Shown here: positions 6,976 to 63,310 of the stretch, piece by piece | Layout: every line of letters starts with the position of its first letter | Position numbering within the stretch: the stretch's first letter is position 1 | Assembly: GCF_002192415.1 (NCBI RefSeq) | Contig: NZ_CP021780.1 | Coordinates: 6,634,001 to 6,698,000 of the forward strand | Direction: 5' to 3' | Length of the DNA: 64,000 bases | Source of the DNA: Paenibacillus donghaensis | GTDB taxonomy: Bacteria; Bacillota; Bacilli; Paenibacillales; Paenibacillaceae | The notes under the pieces: generated by a model | What the model was told of the DNA's origin: nothing | The model's input: the letters and a program-made list of their open reading frames with translations, nothing else | The model's database searches: none | Translations under genes and position numbers: made by a program

Positions 6976-7357
6976 GGTTACTACACAGGTCCCGCTTTTT
7001 TCAGTGTTACTCGTCCGAACCTCTATACAATACCGCGAGACAAGTAGGCTAAGCATACCCAATGAATGCCGTCGCCAGTAACTAGCGCTTACCTTTCAGA
7101 CTGTTGCGGACTCAGGAGCCCCTATTTGCTGTAAAAAGGCTGTTAAACAGGATTAACGGACTCAGCAGCTCTTATTCCGGCGAAACTCCTCTGTGTAAAG
7201 CATGTTCTGATGATATAGCGGCTATACAGTCCGCAAGAATTAAAAATATCGCAGAAACGAGGAAATAGCGGCTCTGGGGGGACGCAAGGGAGTAGGTTAC
7301 CTAAAATTCAAGTGGAGAGTTGTTCGGGTACATCGTCGCAGAGTCCTAAGTAGTAAC
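6976..7357. repeat. Dispersed repeat family A, copy 1 (TIR-bounded)
   Basis: The left end GGTTACTACACAGGTCC and right end GTCCTAAGTAGTAAC form imperfect terminal inverted repeats. The interior from 7058 to 7312 matches two other places in the window (35310-35609 and 54682-54967), including TTGCGGACTCAGGAGCC near 7104 and TACAGTCCGCAAGAATTAAA near 7226. The interior is rich in GCGGAC...AGCC...CTATTT half-sites in both orientations. Together with element E and the terminator it fills the 880-base gap between the glycosyltransferase and mhqD. Confidence 0.75.
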
Positions 7358-13397: not shown

Positions 13398-14069
13398 ATG
13401 GAATTTGAACAAGCACACAGTAACTTTATGCAGCAGCATCTTGCCGGCAGAGCCGGGGAGCGGTTAGGCAGATTGGAACGGGGGCATCATCATGCGGAAA
13501 CCCTGTTTCTGCGCAATGTCTGGTGGCCGCTGATGGGCCATTTGGAGCATCTGCATCCCGAGTATGAGGTGAGTGACTGGCGAGGCCGATCCTATTTCGC
13601 CGACTTCGCCTGGTTGCCGGGCAACGTACGTCTTCTATTCGAAATCAAAGGCTTCGCCACACATGTACGTGATATGGACCGGCAGAAATACTGTAGCGAG
13701 TTGAACCGGGAAACGTTTCTGTACGCGATGGGCTATCAGGTGCTTTCCTTTGCTTACGACGATGTCGAGCAGCGGCCTGATCTCTGCATCACCTTGCTTC
13801 GCCTGGCCCTCGGCAGACATCAGACTGGCAAGGCTCCCACTTCCCGCGTATTGCTTATGGAGAAAGAGCTTATAAAACTGGCCCTCAGCCTCGCCCGTCC
13901 CCTTCGCCCCATTGACGTTAAGCTTCATCTCGGGTTGAACTACCGGACGTCGGCCAGCTTGCTGCACAGCCTGTGCGAGAAAGGATGGATGCGTCCCGCC
14001 CAGCAAGGCAACCGGCAGCGTATCGTTAAATATGAGCTGATGCATGGAATGGTAGACTTCTTGAATTAG
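13398..14069 (+). CDS. Orphan PD-(D/E)XK nuclease-like protein with C-terminal winged helix
   Basis: I do not recognise a named family. Residues 30-130 look like a restriction-endonuclease fold of the Vsr/DUF559 kind: Glu34, Asp69 in YFADFAW, then Glu82-Ile-Lys84 in LLFEIKG, followed by RQKYCSELNRE and a GYQVLSFAYDDV strand-helix element. Residues 150-223 look like a winged helix (LIKLALSLARPLRPIDVKLH, then TSASLLHSLCEKGW, then a basic wing GNRQRIVKYEL). The start is the ATG with AAGGGTG upstream, just after the terminator. The TAG stop lies inside the first palindrome of repeat B copy 1. No methylase or toxin neighbour is present. Confidence 0.6.
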   Translation: MEFEQAHSNFMQQHLAGRAGERLGRLERGHHHAETLFLRNVWWPLMGHLEHLHPEYEVSDWRGRSYFADFAWLPGNVRLLFEIKGFATHVRDMDRQKYCSELNRETFLYAMGYQVLSFAYDDVEQRPDLCITLLRLALGRHQTGKAPTSRVLLMEKELIKLALSLARPLRPIDVKLHLGLNYRTSASLLHSLCEKGWMRPAQQGNRQRIVKYELMHGMVDFLN

Positions 14070-14305
14070 TTGCAAAAACGCATCTAATTCGAAGGTTTTT
14101 TCCGTTTTGGAGCAAATAAGTGCGAAAAGGCATCTAATTTGGTATTCTGAGCGTAATAAGCTTACTTTACTCGAATTTAGTTGCAGATATGCACTTATTA
14201 TCCTGATAATGGGCGTTTCGGCTGAAATTAGTTGCAGTTTCGCATCTAATTACTCCGAAGGTTCCAGGGCAACACTCTAAATCCTGGCTGAATCCTAAGC
14301 AGTAA
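14063..14305. repeat. Repeat family B, copy 1 (left end missing)
   Basis: Four palindromic units of about 27 bases lie at 14063-14090, 14114-14140, 14173-14200 and 14225-14251, each of the form AATTAGTTGC-N5/7-GCATCTAATT. The right end is AATCCTAAGCAGTAAC. It aligns along its whole length with 26330-26583 and with the reverse of 35127-35750. The roughly 70-base left terminus is absent, as it abuts the coding sequence. Confidence 0.75.
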
Positions 14306-14317
14306 CGAAATGTGAGA

Positions 14318-20033: not shown

Positions 20034-20137
20034 AAAGGATGTTTACAAGAATTCAATATAGCTTTTGTACCAGATATACCATCAAAAATGTCGATTTCAG
20101 TCGGAAAATGGTTGTGCTGAGTATAGGATTGATCCAT

Positions 20138-20226
20138 TTATTCAAAGGCAAACTACTTGAAAGAGTAGGACGCAAAGCAATGGGCCTAAAGATGCCAACA
20201 AGGCATTCATGGCTGCCAAGCCGCCA
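20138..20226 (+). ncRNA. Cyclic di-GMP-I (GEMM) riboswitch
   Basis: The conserved GEMM blocks are present in order: AGGCAAAC near 20146, GAAAG closing the first hairpin, GGACGCAAAGC near 20168, GGCCTAA near 20183, a second hairpin, and GGCTGCCAAGCC near 20211 that completes the tetraloop receptor side and the closing helix. It lies 80 bases before the FapA-type gene. Downstream, CATCCG near 20237 can pair with CGGATG near 20267; there is no T run, so control could be at translation or by an untypical terminator. Confidence 0.9.
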
Positions 20227-20304
20227 AGAAGACGAACATCCGCAGATTACTGCGTGTCTTTATGTCCGGATGCCATGATTATACGACAAAGCGAGGGAAT
20301 ATAC

Positions 20305-26117: not shown

Positions 26118-26167
26118 AGCGGCCAGAGGCATAAAGGCCTCTGCTTCACCGTCCGCTGCCGCTTTTA
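26118..26167 (+). terminator. Terminator after the aldehyde dehydrogenase gene
   Basis: Outer stem AGCGGC/GCCGCT enclosing AGAGGC-ATAAA-GGCCTCT, followed by TTTTAT. A 39-base part of it (26128-26166) recurs at 26592-26630 on the far side of the repeat block. Confidence 0.65.
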
Positions 26168-26178
26168 TCAGAATTAAA

Positions 26179-26271
26179 GTTACTGCTTAGGCCTCCGTAT
26201 GATGAGAACCATAGAAGATTTAACTTCGTAGTGGTTTCCTAAGTCTGAGCCATTGAATTAGTTGCAAAAGT
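26179..26271. repeat. Repeat family B, left-end fragment
   Basis: Starts with GTTACTGCTTAGGCC and runs to GAATTAGTTGCAAAAG, the left half of palindrome 1. It aligns with the left end of the reversed copy at 35750-35650. It breaks off in the palindrome loop exactly where the next copy begins. Confidence 0.65.
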
Positions 26272-26583
26272 GGTTACTACTTAGGACCCAATAGGATAGG
26301 AGCATCAAAGTCTGATCGCCACATAAGTCCAATCCAAAGAATTAGTTGCGAAACTGCATCTATTTAGCCGTTTTTTTCTGTTTTGGAGGAAATAAGTGCG
26401 AAAACGCACTTAATTTAGGATTTTGAGCGTAATAAGCTTGCTTTACTCGAATTTAGTTGCAATATCGCACTTAATCGCCTCCTGACAGGGGTTTCAGCTG
26501 AAATTAGTTGCACTTTTGCATCTATATACGCCATCACGTTCCGGAGTAACATTCTAAATCCTCATGGAGACCTAAGTAGTAAC
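26272..26583. repeat. Repeat family B, copy 2 (complete)
   Basis: A 312-base element bounded by GGTTACTACTTAGGACC and GACCTAAGTAGTAAC. Four palindromic units lie at 26339-26365, 26390-26416, 26449-26475 and 26501-26526. No coding capacity. With the fragment before it and the two terminators it fills the 600-base gap between the aldehyde dehydrogenase and GGDEF-EAL genes. Confidence 0.8.
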
Positions 26584-26633
26584 GAATCAAAGGCATAAAG
26601 GCCTCTGATTCATCACACGCAGCCGCTTTTCCC

Positions 26634-33855: not shown

Positions 33856-35088
33856 TTGAAGCAAGAGCTTATGGAACGTTTTATATCGTATGCGAAGATG
33901 GATACACAATCCAATGAAGACAATGACACCTGTCCATCCACCCCGGGGCAGATGGAGCTGGCCCACAAGCTGGTGGAGGAACTGAAGGCCATAGGACTTA
34001 CGGAGGTAGAGGTGGACGAGCATGCGTATGTAATGGCCACACTCCCCTCCAACACCAGTAAGAAAGTGCCTGTCATTGGGTTCCTGGCCCATCTGGATAC
34101 AGCGACCGATTTCACAGGCACTGGCGTCAATCCGCAGGTAGTGGAGAACTATGATGGCAACGATATTACTCTGAATGAGGCCTTGAATGTGGTGCTCTCA
34201 ACGGGCAGCTTCCCTGAGCTTACCGAGTACAAAGGGCACACACTGATAACTACCGACGGCACTACCTTGCTGGGCGCAGACAACAAAGCAGGAATCGCCG
34301 AGATAATGACAGCGATGGTCTATTTGCTGGAGCATCCTGAGATCAAACACGGCAAGATCCGGGTCGCCTTCACTCCCGATGAGGAGATCGGCCGGGGTCC
34401 GCATAAATTCAATGTGCCCGCCTTCGGCGCAGTCTATGCCTATACAGTGGATGGAGGCCCGCTGGGCGAGCTTGAATATGAGAGCTTCAACGCCGCTGCC
34501 GCCAAGGTTACCTTCCATGGAGTCAACGTGCATCCCGGAACGGCCAAAGGGAAGATGATCCACTCTTCCAAAATCGCCATGGCCTTCCATCTCCGCCTAC
34601 CTGCAGGGGAAGCCCCGGAATTCACGGAAGGCTATGAAGGGTTCTACCACCTGATCTCCATTCAGGGAACCCCTGAGCACAGCAAGCTAAGCTATATTAT
34701 CCGCGATTTCGACCGCCAGTCATTCGAGGCACGCAAAGCCCATCTGGCCGCGATTGTGGACGAGTTCAAATCCACCTATGGCGACAGCAGCGTCGTGCTT
34801 GAAATGAATGACCAATATTACAATATGCGCGAGAAAATCGAACCGGTCCGCCACATCGTCGACATTGCCCAAGAAGCGATGGAGAACCTTGGCATCACCC
34901 CGGTCATCCGCCCGATCCGCGGCGGTACCGATGGCTCGCAGCTGTCGTATATGGGCATGCCTACACCCAATATTTTCACCGGGGGCGAGAACTTCCACGG
35001 CAAGTTTGAATATGTGTCTGTAGACAATATGCTGAAGTCCGTACAGACAATCGTCGAGATTGCCAAGCTGTTTGAGCAGAAGGCATAA
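33856..35088 (+). CDS. pepT: Peptidase T (tripeptidase)
   Basis: A zinc aminotripeptidase of the M20 family, 410 residues, the usual length. Metal ligands are in [17 protein letters not shown] (bridging Asp) and [10 protein letters not shown]; the C-terminal [20 protein letters not shown] is diagnostic. The start is TTG with GAGGAGATG upstream. It acts in the cytosol on tripeptides. Not obviously linked to neighbours. Confidence 0.95.
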
Positions 35089-35126
35089 AGGATGCCGAGT
35101 CTTCAGAGCCTTTAGGTGCGAAAATA

Positions 35127-35750
35127 GTTACTATTTAGGTCCTAGTGAGGATTAAGAAGGTTACCCTGGAGCGTTCGGAGTAAATAGATGCGAAACTGCA
35201 ACTAATTGCCTCCAGATCCGCCATCAGAGGGTGAATAAGTGCAAATCTGCAACTAATCTTAAGCAAATCAGTCCTATATTGCTCAGAAGCTCAAATTAGA
35301 TGCCTTTTCGGTTACTACTTAGGTCCCCTAGCCCTCTTCGCTCGTAACCCTCGCTTCGATTTCAGATGGTTGCGGACTCAGGAGCCTCTATTTGCTGTAC
35401 ATAGGCCGTTTTGCAGGATTAACGGACCCAGGAGCCTCTATATCACAGAAAACCCTCGCTTTAGAGCCTGTTTTGACGACTTAGGGGCTATACGGTCCGT
35501 AAGACGTCAAAAGATCGCAGATAAGAGGAAATAGGGGCTATACGGTCCGCTAGAATGCAGGTTACCTAGTTCAAGGGCTTGGAGTGTCGCAGGGTCCTAA
35601 GTAGTAACCCTTTTCGCACTTATTTCCTCTCAAACGGCAGAAAGCAGCCAATTTAAGTGCATTTTCGCAACTAATCAATCATTCGAAGTCACTGAAACCA
35701 CGTTGGGAGAATCTTCGATGTTCTGAACATGCCGAAGCCTAAGCAGTAAC
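35127..35750. repeat. Repeat family B, copy 3 (reversed, split by an A element)
   Basis: Outer ends are GTTACTATTTAGGTCC at left and GCCTAAGCAGTAAC at right. Palindromes at 35182-35207, 35233-35258, a split one (35293-35303 plus 35616-35625) and 35650-35676 align in reverse with copy 2. With the A element removed the length is about 318 bases, near the 312 of copy 2. Flanks CGAAA at both sides may be a target duplication. Confidence 0.78.
35310..35609. repeat. Dispersed repeat family A, copy 2, nested in repeat B
   Basis: A 300-base element with terminal inverted repeats GGTTACTACTTAGGTCC and GGTCCTAAGTAGTAACC (16 of 17 match). CTTTTC occurs immediately outside each end (35304-35309 and 35610-35615). 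The interior shares GGACTCAGGAGCC and CTATTTGCTGTA with copy 1. Confidence 0.85.
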
Positions 35751-35828
35751 CGAAAGTGCAACTAGTTCAATCGGCTTGCCAACGGCATAGGCAAAGAATC
35801 CGCCGTCATTAGCCGGTTATACCCCAAG

Positions 35829-35869
35829 AAGCCCTGCCAGAATCCATCGGACTCTGGCAGGGCTTTTTC
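35829..35869. terminator. Terminator between pepT and the OYE gene
   Basis: AAGCCCTGCCAGA and TCTGGCAGGGCTT form a 13-base stem followed by TTT. It separates two convergent genes; on the minus strand the T run is weaker. Confidence 0.85.
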
Positions 35870-35950
35870 ATAAGATAAGACTCCCCGCCCCTTGTAGAGG
35901 ACTACCTAGCCGTTTCTTCTTCATTTCTTCTTCGTTTCTTCTTATGTCCC

Positions 35951-37072
35951 TTAAGCCTTTATCGGCACCCATCCCGGGGTGTTAAGCAGCGCACCCCAGA
36001 GATAATCGGGAATCACCAGCTCGGCCTGGGCAGCAGGGTCCAGCTCCGTCTTGATCTCGTCAGCACGGCCTTCGGCAACCTTCTGCACCCAGTCCGGCTC
36101 AACCAGCAGCGGACGGCCAAGTGCAACCAGCCCCACTCCGCTTTGCAGTGCCTTCAGCGCATCATCCGCAGTGTAGAGCGAGCCGACCCCGATTACCGGC
36201 AGCTTGCCCGCGGCACGGTCCATCAGCTGTTCGATACGTGGGCGGGTGTCTTCCGTCCCCCGGTGGGGCAGTGCCCAGAAATCCTGCAGCGAGACATGCA
36301 GGTAATCCAGCCCGCGGCTGCTGAGCGCATCAACCAGCACAAACGTATCCGCCATGGTAATCCCTGGGGTTTCCGGCTCTTCCGGCGAGAAGCGGTAGCC
36401 TGCCAGGAACGGCGCCTTGGCATGCTCTTTGATGGCGCGCGTGACTTCATCCACCACCGCCAGCGGGAACGTCAGCCGTTTCTCCTGGCTTCCGCCCCAG
36501 CGGTCTTCGCGGGTGTTGGAATGCGGGGAGAAGAACTGCTGCAGCAGGTAGCCATTGGCACCGTGAATCTCCACGCCATCGAATCCCGCTTCAATCGCCC
36601 GCCGCGTCGCCTCACCGAAATCGGCGATGATACCCACAATTTCCGCATCGCTCAGCGGACGCGGAACCGGGCCGTTGCCGCCGGTCGGCAGCACCGCCGC
36701 AACATCGCTTGCACTGACCGTCTGCCGGTCAGGCAGCAGCTCCGGCGGGCACTGGCGCCCGCCGTGGAAGATCTGCAGGATCGCCTTGGCTCCCTGCGCC
36801 AGGCGGCGCAGGCTCGGGATCAGTTCGTCGCGGTCAGCGCCGAACTCGCCCTGGAATCCCTTCCCGCTTGCGTTCACATACACGCAAGCGGTCACCACCA
36901 TACCTGCGCCTGCAGACCGGCGCACGTAATAGGCCAACTCCTCCTCCGACACCGTGCCGTCCGGCAAGGAGGCGAAATTGGTCATCGGAGCCATCACTAC
37001 GCGGTTCTTCAAGGCTACTCCATTCCTGAACGTAAAGGAGTCCAGCAATGGACTATAATCTGTTTTTAACAT
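35951..37072 (-). CDS. NADH:flavin oxidoreductase (Old Yellow Enzyme family)
   Basis: An FMN-dependent enal reductase of 373 residues, TIM barrel. LKNRVVMAPMTN is the typical N-terminal FMN segment, LQIFHGGRQ lies near the substrate, GFDGVEIHGANGYLLQQFFS holds the active-site His-x-x-Asn, and NTREDRWGGS follows. VIGVGSLYTADDAL and LVALGRPLL bind the FMN phosphate. GGAGG lies 11 bases before the ATG. Likely reduces electrophilic alkenes or quinones; it stands downstream of the hxl genes but behind repeat E. Confidence 0.9.
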   Translation of the reverse strand: MLKTDYSPLLDSFTFRNGVALKNRVVMAPMTNFASLPDGTVSEEELAYYVRRSAGAGMVVTACVYVNASGKGFQGEFGADRDELIPSLRRLAQGAKAILQIFHGGRQCPPELLPDRQTVSASDVAAVLPTGGNGPVPRPLSDAEIVGIIADFGEATRRAIEAGFDGVEIHGANGYLLQQFFSPHSNTREDRWGGSQEKRLTFPLAVVDEVTRAIKEHAKAPFLAGYRFSPEEPETPGITMADTFVLVDALSSRGLDYLHVSLQDFWALPHRGTEDTRPRIEQLMDRAAGKLPVIGVGSLYTADDALKALQSGVGLVALGRPLLVEPDWVQKVAEGRADEIKTELDPAAQAELVIPDYLWGALLNTPGWVPIKA

Positions 37073-54681: not shown

Positions 54682-54967
54682 GGGCTACTCTTTAGGCCCC
54701 TTTCAAAGTTAACCAATGAAGACCGTCGCCAATAACCAGCGCTTAACTTTCGGACGATTGCGGACTCAGGAGCCCCTATTTGCCGCAAAAATGCGGTTTT
54801 GCAGGTTTAACGGACTGAGGAGCCCTTATCCCAGCGAAACCCCTCTGTTTGGAGCCTGTTTTGACGATATAGCGGCTATACAGTCCGCAAGAATTAAAAA
54901 CACCGCAGGAATCAGGAAATAGCGGCCATGGGGAGACGCAGTAGAGTGGGCTACCTAAAGTTCAAGT
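54682..54967. repeat. Dispersed repeat family A, copy 3 (right end missing)
   Basis: The left end GGGCTACTCTTTAGGCCCC is a decayed form of the GGTTACTACTTAGGTCC terminus. From 54712 the sequence follows copy 1 closely (TGCGGACTCAGGAGCCCC; TACAGTCCGCAAGAATTAAA) until TTCAAG at 54967, where the right terminus is absent. It fills most of the gap between the exopolysaccharide operon and the K+ channel gene. Confidence 0.75.
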
Positions 54968-63102: not shown

Positions 63103-63207
63103 CTGGGTTTTTGTCCCTGGGTGGTGTAACACTGTGCAGTGTCCGCATCGCTTGGACCAGTCCTTCTTCACGTCAGCAAAAAAACGGAACCCTAGATGCG
63201 CTATTTC

Positions 63208-63278
63208 ACTCATAGTCGGATAATTTCAGTGGTTATCCGGTAGAAACTTATGGGCCATATTCCCAAGATTATATGAGT
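63208..63278 (-). ncRNA. Purine (guanine/xanthine-class) riboswitch aptamer
   Basis: On the minus strand: ACTCATATAATC closing helix, GGGAATATGGCCC hairpin, GTTTCTACCGG, second hairpin GGATAACC...TTATCC, and CCGACTATGAGT. All conserved junction bases (TATAATC, TTTCTACC, CCGACTATG) are present. The C in GACTAT is the guanine-type specificity base. Confidence 0.95.
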
Positions 63279-63310
63279 TTTAAAGTATAAACAGTTGAAA
63301 ACCTTTGTAT

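Follow-up and report, generated by a model that had tools for sequence, protein, structure and literature searches.

A short non-coding element at the centre of a palindrome carried by a second element in Paenibacillus donghaensis, and its probable relationship to an IS66-family transposase

Bacterial MITEs are short, non-coding, TIR-bounded elements that are present in many copies and are flanked by target duplications. IS elements that insert into REP palindromes include IS1397, ISKpn1, IS621 and ISPpu9/10 among others, and those that target such palindromes are placed, in the accessible part of the source, in the IS3, IS110, IS4, IS256 and IS5 families (PMC1525189). Palindrome target choice is thus already known in five other IS families, and the case described here is one in IS66. 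REPs themselves have been tied to tyrosine transposases (title of PMC2817692), and two Paracoccus IS66 elements appear with 8-bp repeats in the accessible part of PMC3281130. A limited literature search returned no report of palindrome targeting by an IS66 element.

The locus lies in a 64,000-nucleotide stretch of the P. donghaensis genome (NZ_CP021780.1, positions 6,634,001 to 6,698,000; ‘the window’) and consists of one element, A, inside another, B (Table 1). The near-perfect 17-base inverted ends of A reported in the initial annotation are as described, but the length of 300 bases given there has to be reduced to 298 bp; read from the flanks, the C and the G at the two edges of the palindrome loop are target DNA and not the ends of A. 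CTTTTC is present on both sides of A, as had been noted, and is the inner part of an 8-mer, CCTTTTCG, that is identical to left and right. The target duplication is therefore 8 bp and the 6 bp originally proposed is wrong, the C and G of the loop having been taken for element ends. Joining the flanks of A over one copy of the duplication gives AAATTAGATGCCTTTTCGCACTTATTT, the reverse complement of 14114-14140, and the rejoined site as first written, AAATTAGATGC-CTTTTC-GCACTTATTT, is identical to that reverse complement. The unfilled palindrome there is real, but it belongs to another B copy at a different locus, so that the window does not hold the filled and empty states of one site. Apart from its one wrong number, the duplication length, the earlier observation was correct and sharp, and on the available sequence A is best read as a non-coding relative of an IS66-family element, inserted at the exact dyad of a B palindrome.

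With A and one copy of the duplication removed, element B is 318 bp long and contains four palindromes spaced 51-61-51 bp, of which A occupies the third. From its flanks B itself looks like an insertion nested in an older, partly decayed target of the same kind (TTTAGGTG-CGAAAATA / CGAAAGTG-CAACTAGTT). In the second nested case in the window the right flank of the B element carries no matching duplication, and similar stretches (GGCATAAAGGCCTCTG...), perhaps a duplicated terminator, are found on either side of the nested B elements at 26128-26160 and 26584-26625. Inspection by eye of the B copy on the other strand placed the start of its first palindrome at the apparent stop codon (GAATTAG) of an upstream frame (14059-14086) and a terminator-like hairpin after the element. 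Three A-type sites spaced 50 and 62 bp were also seen at 54758-54890, with no paired ends around them and only a 3-mismatch end-like match at 54684. A promoter and terminator scan of 35000-36100 returned nothing by its criteria, and the only Rfam matches in the window lie away from the locus, a purine riboswitch at 63193-63296 (-) and a c-di-GMP-I riboswitch at 20137-20228 (+).

Table 1. Features of the nested locus and of related elements in the window
Feature	Position	Strand	Remarks
Element A, 298 bp, putative MITE	35311..35608	+	TIRs GTTACTACTTAGGTCCC / GGGTCCTAAGTAGTAAC; four internal A-type sites
Target duplication, left 8-bp copy	35303..35310	+	CCTTTTCG
Target duplication, right 8-bp copy	35609..35616	+	CCTTTTCG
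Palindrome P3 (filled by A), left half-site	35297..35302	+	TAGATG
Palindrome P3 (filled by A), right half-site	35617..35622	+	CACTTA
Four A-type sites within element A	35370..35552	.	35370, 35420, 35482, 35532; spacing 50-62-50; 9 bp between half-sites, by-eye reading
Element B (outer, holds A)	35127..35750	+	Ends GTTACTATTTAGG / CCTAAGCAGTAAC (A-like)
B left flank	35119..35126	+	CGAAAATA, adjoins half-site TTTAGGTG; differs from right flank at 2 bases, probably an old 8-bp duplication
B right flank	35751..35758	+	CGAAAGTG, then half-site CAACTAGTT
B palindrome P1	35185..35204	.	Unfilled
B palindrome P2	35236..35255	.	Unfilled
B palindrome P4	35654..35673	.	Unfilled
Palindrome of another B copy	14114..14140	-	Unfilled; reverse complement equals the rejoined target of A
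B copy	14067..14306	-	Four unfilled palindromes (14067, 14117, 14178, 14229); one recognisable TIR (14294-14306)
Complete B element, second nested case	26273..26583	+	Adjoins, at its left end, loop CAAAAGTG of a palindrome in a B fragment (26179-26272)
Longer A-type element, 381 bp	6977..7357	+	Flanks differ at 5 of 8 bases

Pairing of element ends in the window and in six stretches of 400 kb each, together 2.464 Mb or 29% of the genome, gave 89 elements, and further loci from searches brought the number of distinct elements to 145. Among the 89, an exact duplication extends to at most 8 bp in 34, to 7 bp in 1 and to 0-2 bp in 54, and both palindrome arms are present around 54 of the 89; in the set of 145 the corresponding numbers are 60 (8 bp), 2 (7 bp) and 83 (0-2 bp). 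Among the 60 elements with an exact 8-bp duplication, 46 lie between both arms (one mismatch per arm allowed), with 18 distinct duplicated 8-mers, and 14 do not. Non-palindromic sites show 8-bp duplications (for example ATAAATCC, CAAGATAC and GAATTTAG) beside ends GTTACT...AGTAAC, and it is because of these that the length is set at 8 bp. Transposition into the loop of a B palindrome, as first suggested, is upheld by this survey in that palindrome-loop duplications recur throughout the genome, at 8 bp rather than the expected 6 bp, and hundreds of palindromes are unfilled.

The end motif GTTACTRCTTAGG (one mismatch or fewer) occurs 592 times in the 8.54-Mb genome compared with 38 times for the reversed control, which is well above chance. 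The strict B palindrome TARDTGC-N6-GCAHYTA (found on both strands) has 823 occurrences compared with none in the control, and in the 59 other genomes among 60 searched (one genome per species) it occurs 0-3 times per genome. The gap between the B arms is fixed, with 312 occurrences at a gap of 6 and 0 or 1 at every other gap from 0 to 15. For element A the same 60-genome set, which includes P. donghaensis, gave weak, partial matches in 3 other genomes. BLAST found at least 40 copies of A (40 of 274 first-look candidates were scored), and 27 of the 40 listed, with A itself counted in, show 97% or higher identity to A, judged by which the A copies are young. A pattern scan of a wider contig collection gave five stretches with one match each (three Paenibacillus, one Limosilactobacillus and one Flavobacteriales MAG), with both ends at L094 and one end at the other four; the half-site is present at L094 and L091 and shifted by one base at L093 (by eye), and the flank of L091 (P. 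monticola) is the same as that of L164 from G018.

Clustering by sequence separated three types that share their TIRs, are short, lack a transposase ORF and have a target duplication like that of the IS described below. A-type elements number 29, of which 27 have both arms and one more has the left arm and a 7-bp match; C-type elements (about 280 bp) number 13, nine of them with both arms; and B-type elements number 22, with both arms in 7, one arm in 6 and no arm in 9. Internal sites in this genome are laid out at 50-62-50 in A (28 elements), at 51-61-50, 50-61-51 or 50-61-50 in B (21 elements) and mostly at 51/52-59-51/52 in C (13 elements), and the gap between half-sites is 9 bp in A, 8 bp in B and 7 bp in C (A and C by eye). 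Three composite structures were also seen. At G000:C1:130320-132512 the fourth A-type site of an A/B hybrid (A-type left part, B-type right end) is interrupted by an ORF for what is presumably a transposase of the IS110 type. An A-type element at G000:C1:2037453-2038037 holds in its fourth A-type site another small element, which has inverted repeats at its ends (around CTGTCGATTCATTGTGG), is flanked by ATACG to left and right and possibly represents a second family using A-type sites. Finally, an element with these TIRs and C-type sites at G000:C1:4457856-4459687 carries a long transposase-like ORF with inverted ends of its own, which by eye we take to be IS4-like.

A 1627-bp element with the same ends as A (G000:C1:7570585-7572211) is filled almost completely by a 509-amino-acid ORF, its single transposase gene. 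The product was assigned as TnpC from matches above cut-offs to Pfam PF03050 (E 6.3e-50) and PF13005 (1.4e-9) and to the NCBIfam IS66 model NF033517 (E 4.3e-94), and so has both the IS66 DDE domain and the IS66 zinc finger. Three TnpC genes were found in the genome, and all three elements have TIRs like those of A (one mismatch or fewer between ends), exact 8-bp duplications (CACTTTTG, CGATATCG and CAAAAAGG) and a position at a palindrome centre. By eye, some long A-type elements have 26 bp at one end in common with the TnpC-encoding IS. A, B and C are accordingly best read, as far as sequence can tell, as MITEs of an ISBst12-type IS66-family element of this genome, and their shared ends and shared target suggest that TnpC mobilises them in trans.

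We consider it highly probable that A is a MITE of the resident ISBst12-type IS66 element, inserted by TnpC with an 8-bp stagger between outward half-sites, and that B is a sister MITE carrying four targets. TnpC would act on the TIRs common to the IS and the MITEs, cut the target with an 8-bp stagger and insert the element. The target would be read as two outward-facing half-sites, N3-[C/T]TA-[A/T]TT, 8 bp apart, and the 8 bp between them would become the duplication. The interior of B would present four ideal two-sided targets and each B copy would therefore offer four landing pads, allowing the family to nest in itself. We infer that the half-sites are read by TnpC rather than by a bound host protein. 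Counting against this mechanism is that B elements are themselves often outside palindromes, both arms being present in just 7 of 22.

The half-site is often kept at targets other than the B palindrome. A weight matrix was trained on the 46 palindromic sites, with positions slid along the same flanks as the null, and the 14 non-palindromic sites of this genome scored above the slid positions (Fisher p 1.3e-6), although the local p of individual sites exceeds 0.05 in 6 of the 14 and 0.3 in 4 of these 6; three sites from relatives gave p 0.019. In 11 of these 17 sites (8/14 own and 3/3 relatives) one side or both have the trinucleotide [CT]TA at outward positions 4-6, compared with 7% expected; the eight own sites keep one half-site and the other six have none on either side. 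As [CT]TA had been noticed in those 17 sites it was then tested on others. Homologous transposase genes (E 1e-100 or better) are present in 16 of 295 genomes of the family, P. donghaensis included, and 28 of 30 new places together with five earlier loci gave a sample of 33 elements from relatives (of the family genomes, G348 is probably Cohnella cholangitidis, G324 probably C. herbarum, G250 probably C. abietis, G203 probably P. beijingensis and G346 probably P. faecis). An exact duplication was found in 25 of them (8 bp in 18 and 9 bp in 7, the latter length being allowed only after it had been noticed in these data) and none in 8. At outward positions 4-6 [CT]TA is present on at least one side in 18 of the 25 and on both sides in 11, against a local null of 5%; without the three sites in which the motif was spotted the figure is 15 of 22 (p 4e-15 if independent, although copies within a genome are not fully so). 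Seven elements have no half-site on either side, namely the full set of four from G346, which have another target in common, two of those from G144 and the one from G203. Half-sites stand on both sides, 9 bp apart, in six of the seven 9-bp cases (for example AATAGCGG-[CACCGCGTG]-CCGCTATT in G348) and on one side in the other; among elements with an exact duplication both-sided half-sites are found in 4/5 in G270 and 2/2 in G348. Judged by these flanks, the half-site of P. donghaensis recurs, with duplications of 8 or 9 bp, beside IS66 relatives elsewhere in the Paenibacillaceae. The idea that the palindrome arms are copies of the element ends was rejected: 7 of 10 bases agree, but shuffled ends equal this identity in 10% of cases and the matrix score in 16%.

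Palindromes of related form also occur in arrays. ATARCGG-N9-CCGYTAT is found 163 times in G348, 73 in G346, 54 in G270 and 51 in G324, and 0-1 times in the six other genomes searched, P. donghaensis included (control 0-1). TARHTG-N8-CADYTA is found 437 times in P. donghaensis (control 15) and 100 times in G270 (control 17), and in the other eight genomes is near or below control, at most 17 compared with 10 in G348. At the array loci that were read, units mostly repeat at 50-52 bp. Loci L285-L294 and L300-L312 (G348 and G270) show palindromes every 51 bp as well as sites at the B-quad spacing with mostly unrelated spacers, and by eye a terminator-like hairpin follows the array at L285 and L286 at least. 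For sites with an 8-bp gap in G270 and G348, all four positions of 51-61-51 were recovered by pattern at L294, and at other loci two or three sites at B-quad distances were, with the remaining ones placed by eye. The quads read in relatives are without IS66-type TIRs; a search with up to 3 mismatches in the 23 stretches L292-L314, some of them only 401-451 bp long, gave a single match, in L307. By comparison, when TIRs with up to 3 mismatches were sought no further than 140 bp from the 43 intact B quads, 18 quads had one on each side, 17 on a single side and 8 none. For the DNA between sites, eight quads were compared in 28 pairs, and 26 pairs had z below 3 relative to shuffles (five of them 2.0-2.9), the others being L312/L294 (3.7) and L299/L300 (10.8), in a comparison that is approximate in that L305 P2 and P4 were misplaced and some sites of L302, L307, L309 and L312 were off by at least one base. 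No Rfam family reached its gathering score on 18 array loci.

The array spacing corresponds to about five or six helical turns, which suggests a protein assembly, and the IS66 ends may have captured an existing kind of array. We tentatively extend this to a possibility that we lean slightly against, namely that some Paenibacillaceae genomes have an undescribed class of nucleoprotein arrays in which two-sided [CT]TA sites of about 20 bp, with gaps of 7, 8 or 9 bp, repeat at 51 or 61 bp, distances close to 5 and 6 helical turns of 10.2 bp, and in many cases form 51-61-51 quads. As spacing is kept despite mostly unrelated spacer DNA, it would on this reading be fixed by protein assembly, perhaps of the IS66 transposase or of a host factor; the arrays would serve IS66/ISBst12 elements as addresses, with the duplication equal to the gap between half-sites, and in P. 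donghaensis the IS66 ends would have captured a quad, producing a transposon that spreads its own landing pads.

The nearly perfect palindromes of the G348 and G270 arrays, together with the IS elements known to target palindromic repeats (PMC1525189, accessible part), might indicate that the target is a DNA hairpin or cruciform and that the secondary structure of the loop, not the half-site sequence, attracts insertion. We regard this as quite unlikely, because just 35 of the 308 palindromes tabulated for this genome have 7-base arms that match exactly (TAGATGC 27/122, TAGTTGC 3/87 and TAAGTGC 5/82) and half-sites are kept at 8 of the 14 sites without a palindrome. Selection for a hairpin in the B palindromes was set aside because of the same 35/308. 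Junctions of tandem ends were also discarded as a source of the palindromes, the sampled 2.46 Mb having three pairs of ends joined end to end at 40 bp or less, the spacers measuring 37, 30 and 7 bp.

Insertion could instead be random, the copies in B palindromes being the survivors in harmless intergenic DNA. Genes were convergent around 32 of 76 top-level elements compared with 202 of 986 background gaps longer than 100 bp (crude ORFs), and one of the 76 lies inside an unbroken crude ORF, in a test that is blind to genes broken by an element. Selection may well influence which copies remain. Survival cannot, however, explain why insertions are found precisely on the dyad of a 20-bp site and not elsewhere in the same 300-bp element, and half-sites are seen again at non-palindromic targets and in other genera; random insertion is therefore very unlikely as the explanation.

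A further alternative is that composite B+A cassettes were copied by recombination rather than formed by repeated insertion. The flanks of 88 palindromic insertions were compared with P1-P4 of the 43 intact B quads, and for 55 a palindrome of origin could be named to the left as well as to the right. Both flanks come from one palindrome in 41 of these, 39 of which have two or fewer mismatches in the 8 bp, and from different palindromes in 14, with three or more mismatches in 6 and 0-2 in 8. The unlike 8-mers and the flanks drawn from two palindromes in some elements speak for this alternative, and recombination among copies has probably occurred; as flanks from different palindromes are often mismatched, unequal duplications would often mark later recombination or deletion between copies. 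Three or more mismatches in the 8 bp were seen in 31 of the 89 end-paired elements (both arms 14, one arm 11, none 6), some of which are probably mispaired ends. The 41 concordant insertions nevertheless use all four palindromes (P4 18, P1 8, P2 8 and P3 7), and this and the 18 distinct 8-mers at the 46 palindromic sites make cassette copying extremely improbable as the general origin. A 6-bp duplication with C and G as element ends, formally equivalent to 8 bp at palindromic sites since the loop almost always lies between a C and a G, is next to impossible and already refuted by non-palindromic 8-bp duplications that are not framed by a leading C and a closing G (ATAAATCC, GAATTTAG, AATTTAAG and TCTATTTC), by the absence of any longest exact match of 3-6 bp among the 145 elements and by the 8-bp repeats of described IS66 elements (PMC12898284 and PMC3281130, accessible parts).

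If insertion by TnpC between outward half-sites is correct, a large transposase family would have a readable target code (half-site, gap and duplication length) that is directly testable, and a mobile element that brings its favoured targets along with it would offer a natural model for a transposon that limits harm to its host by nesting. The arrays of sites at 51 and 61 bp with mostly unrelated spacers call for a binding protein.

A, B and C have the general traits of bacterial MITEs but differ in that each holds four internal two-sided sites, at spacings of 50-52, 58-62 and 50-52 bp. They resemble BIME/REP arrays and REPINs in being associated with extragenic palindromes in regularly spaced clusters of high copy number (PMC2817692 and PMC3116915), whereas mobility here would be that of TIR elements with target duplications. 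The ISBst12 group, as represented by ISDge4 of Deinococcus geothermalis, has a single transposase ORF within TIRs and an 8-bp direct repeat, and the ISDge4 TIRs (GTGACTACTCAGCA / GTAACTGCTCAGCA) are by eye similar to GTTACTACTTAGGA here; the accessible text on ISDge4 makes no mention of a palindrome preference (PMC12898284), whereas the present family has many non-coding derivatives and nests in itself, and 7 of 25 duplications in the relatives’ elements are of 9 bp. As for elements of the IS1397/ISPpu9 type, several copies of one IS lie in members of a repeated extragenic palindrome family (PMC1525189, accessible part), and insertion at a fixed point of such a palindrome is found here in 46 of the 60 elements with exact duplications; the difference is that the word IS66 does not occur in the text of that paper and that many of the palindromes in P. 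donghaensis are carried by MITEs with the ends of the inserting element.
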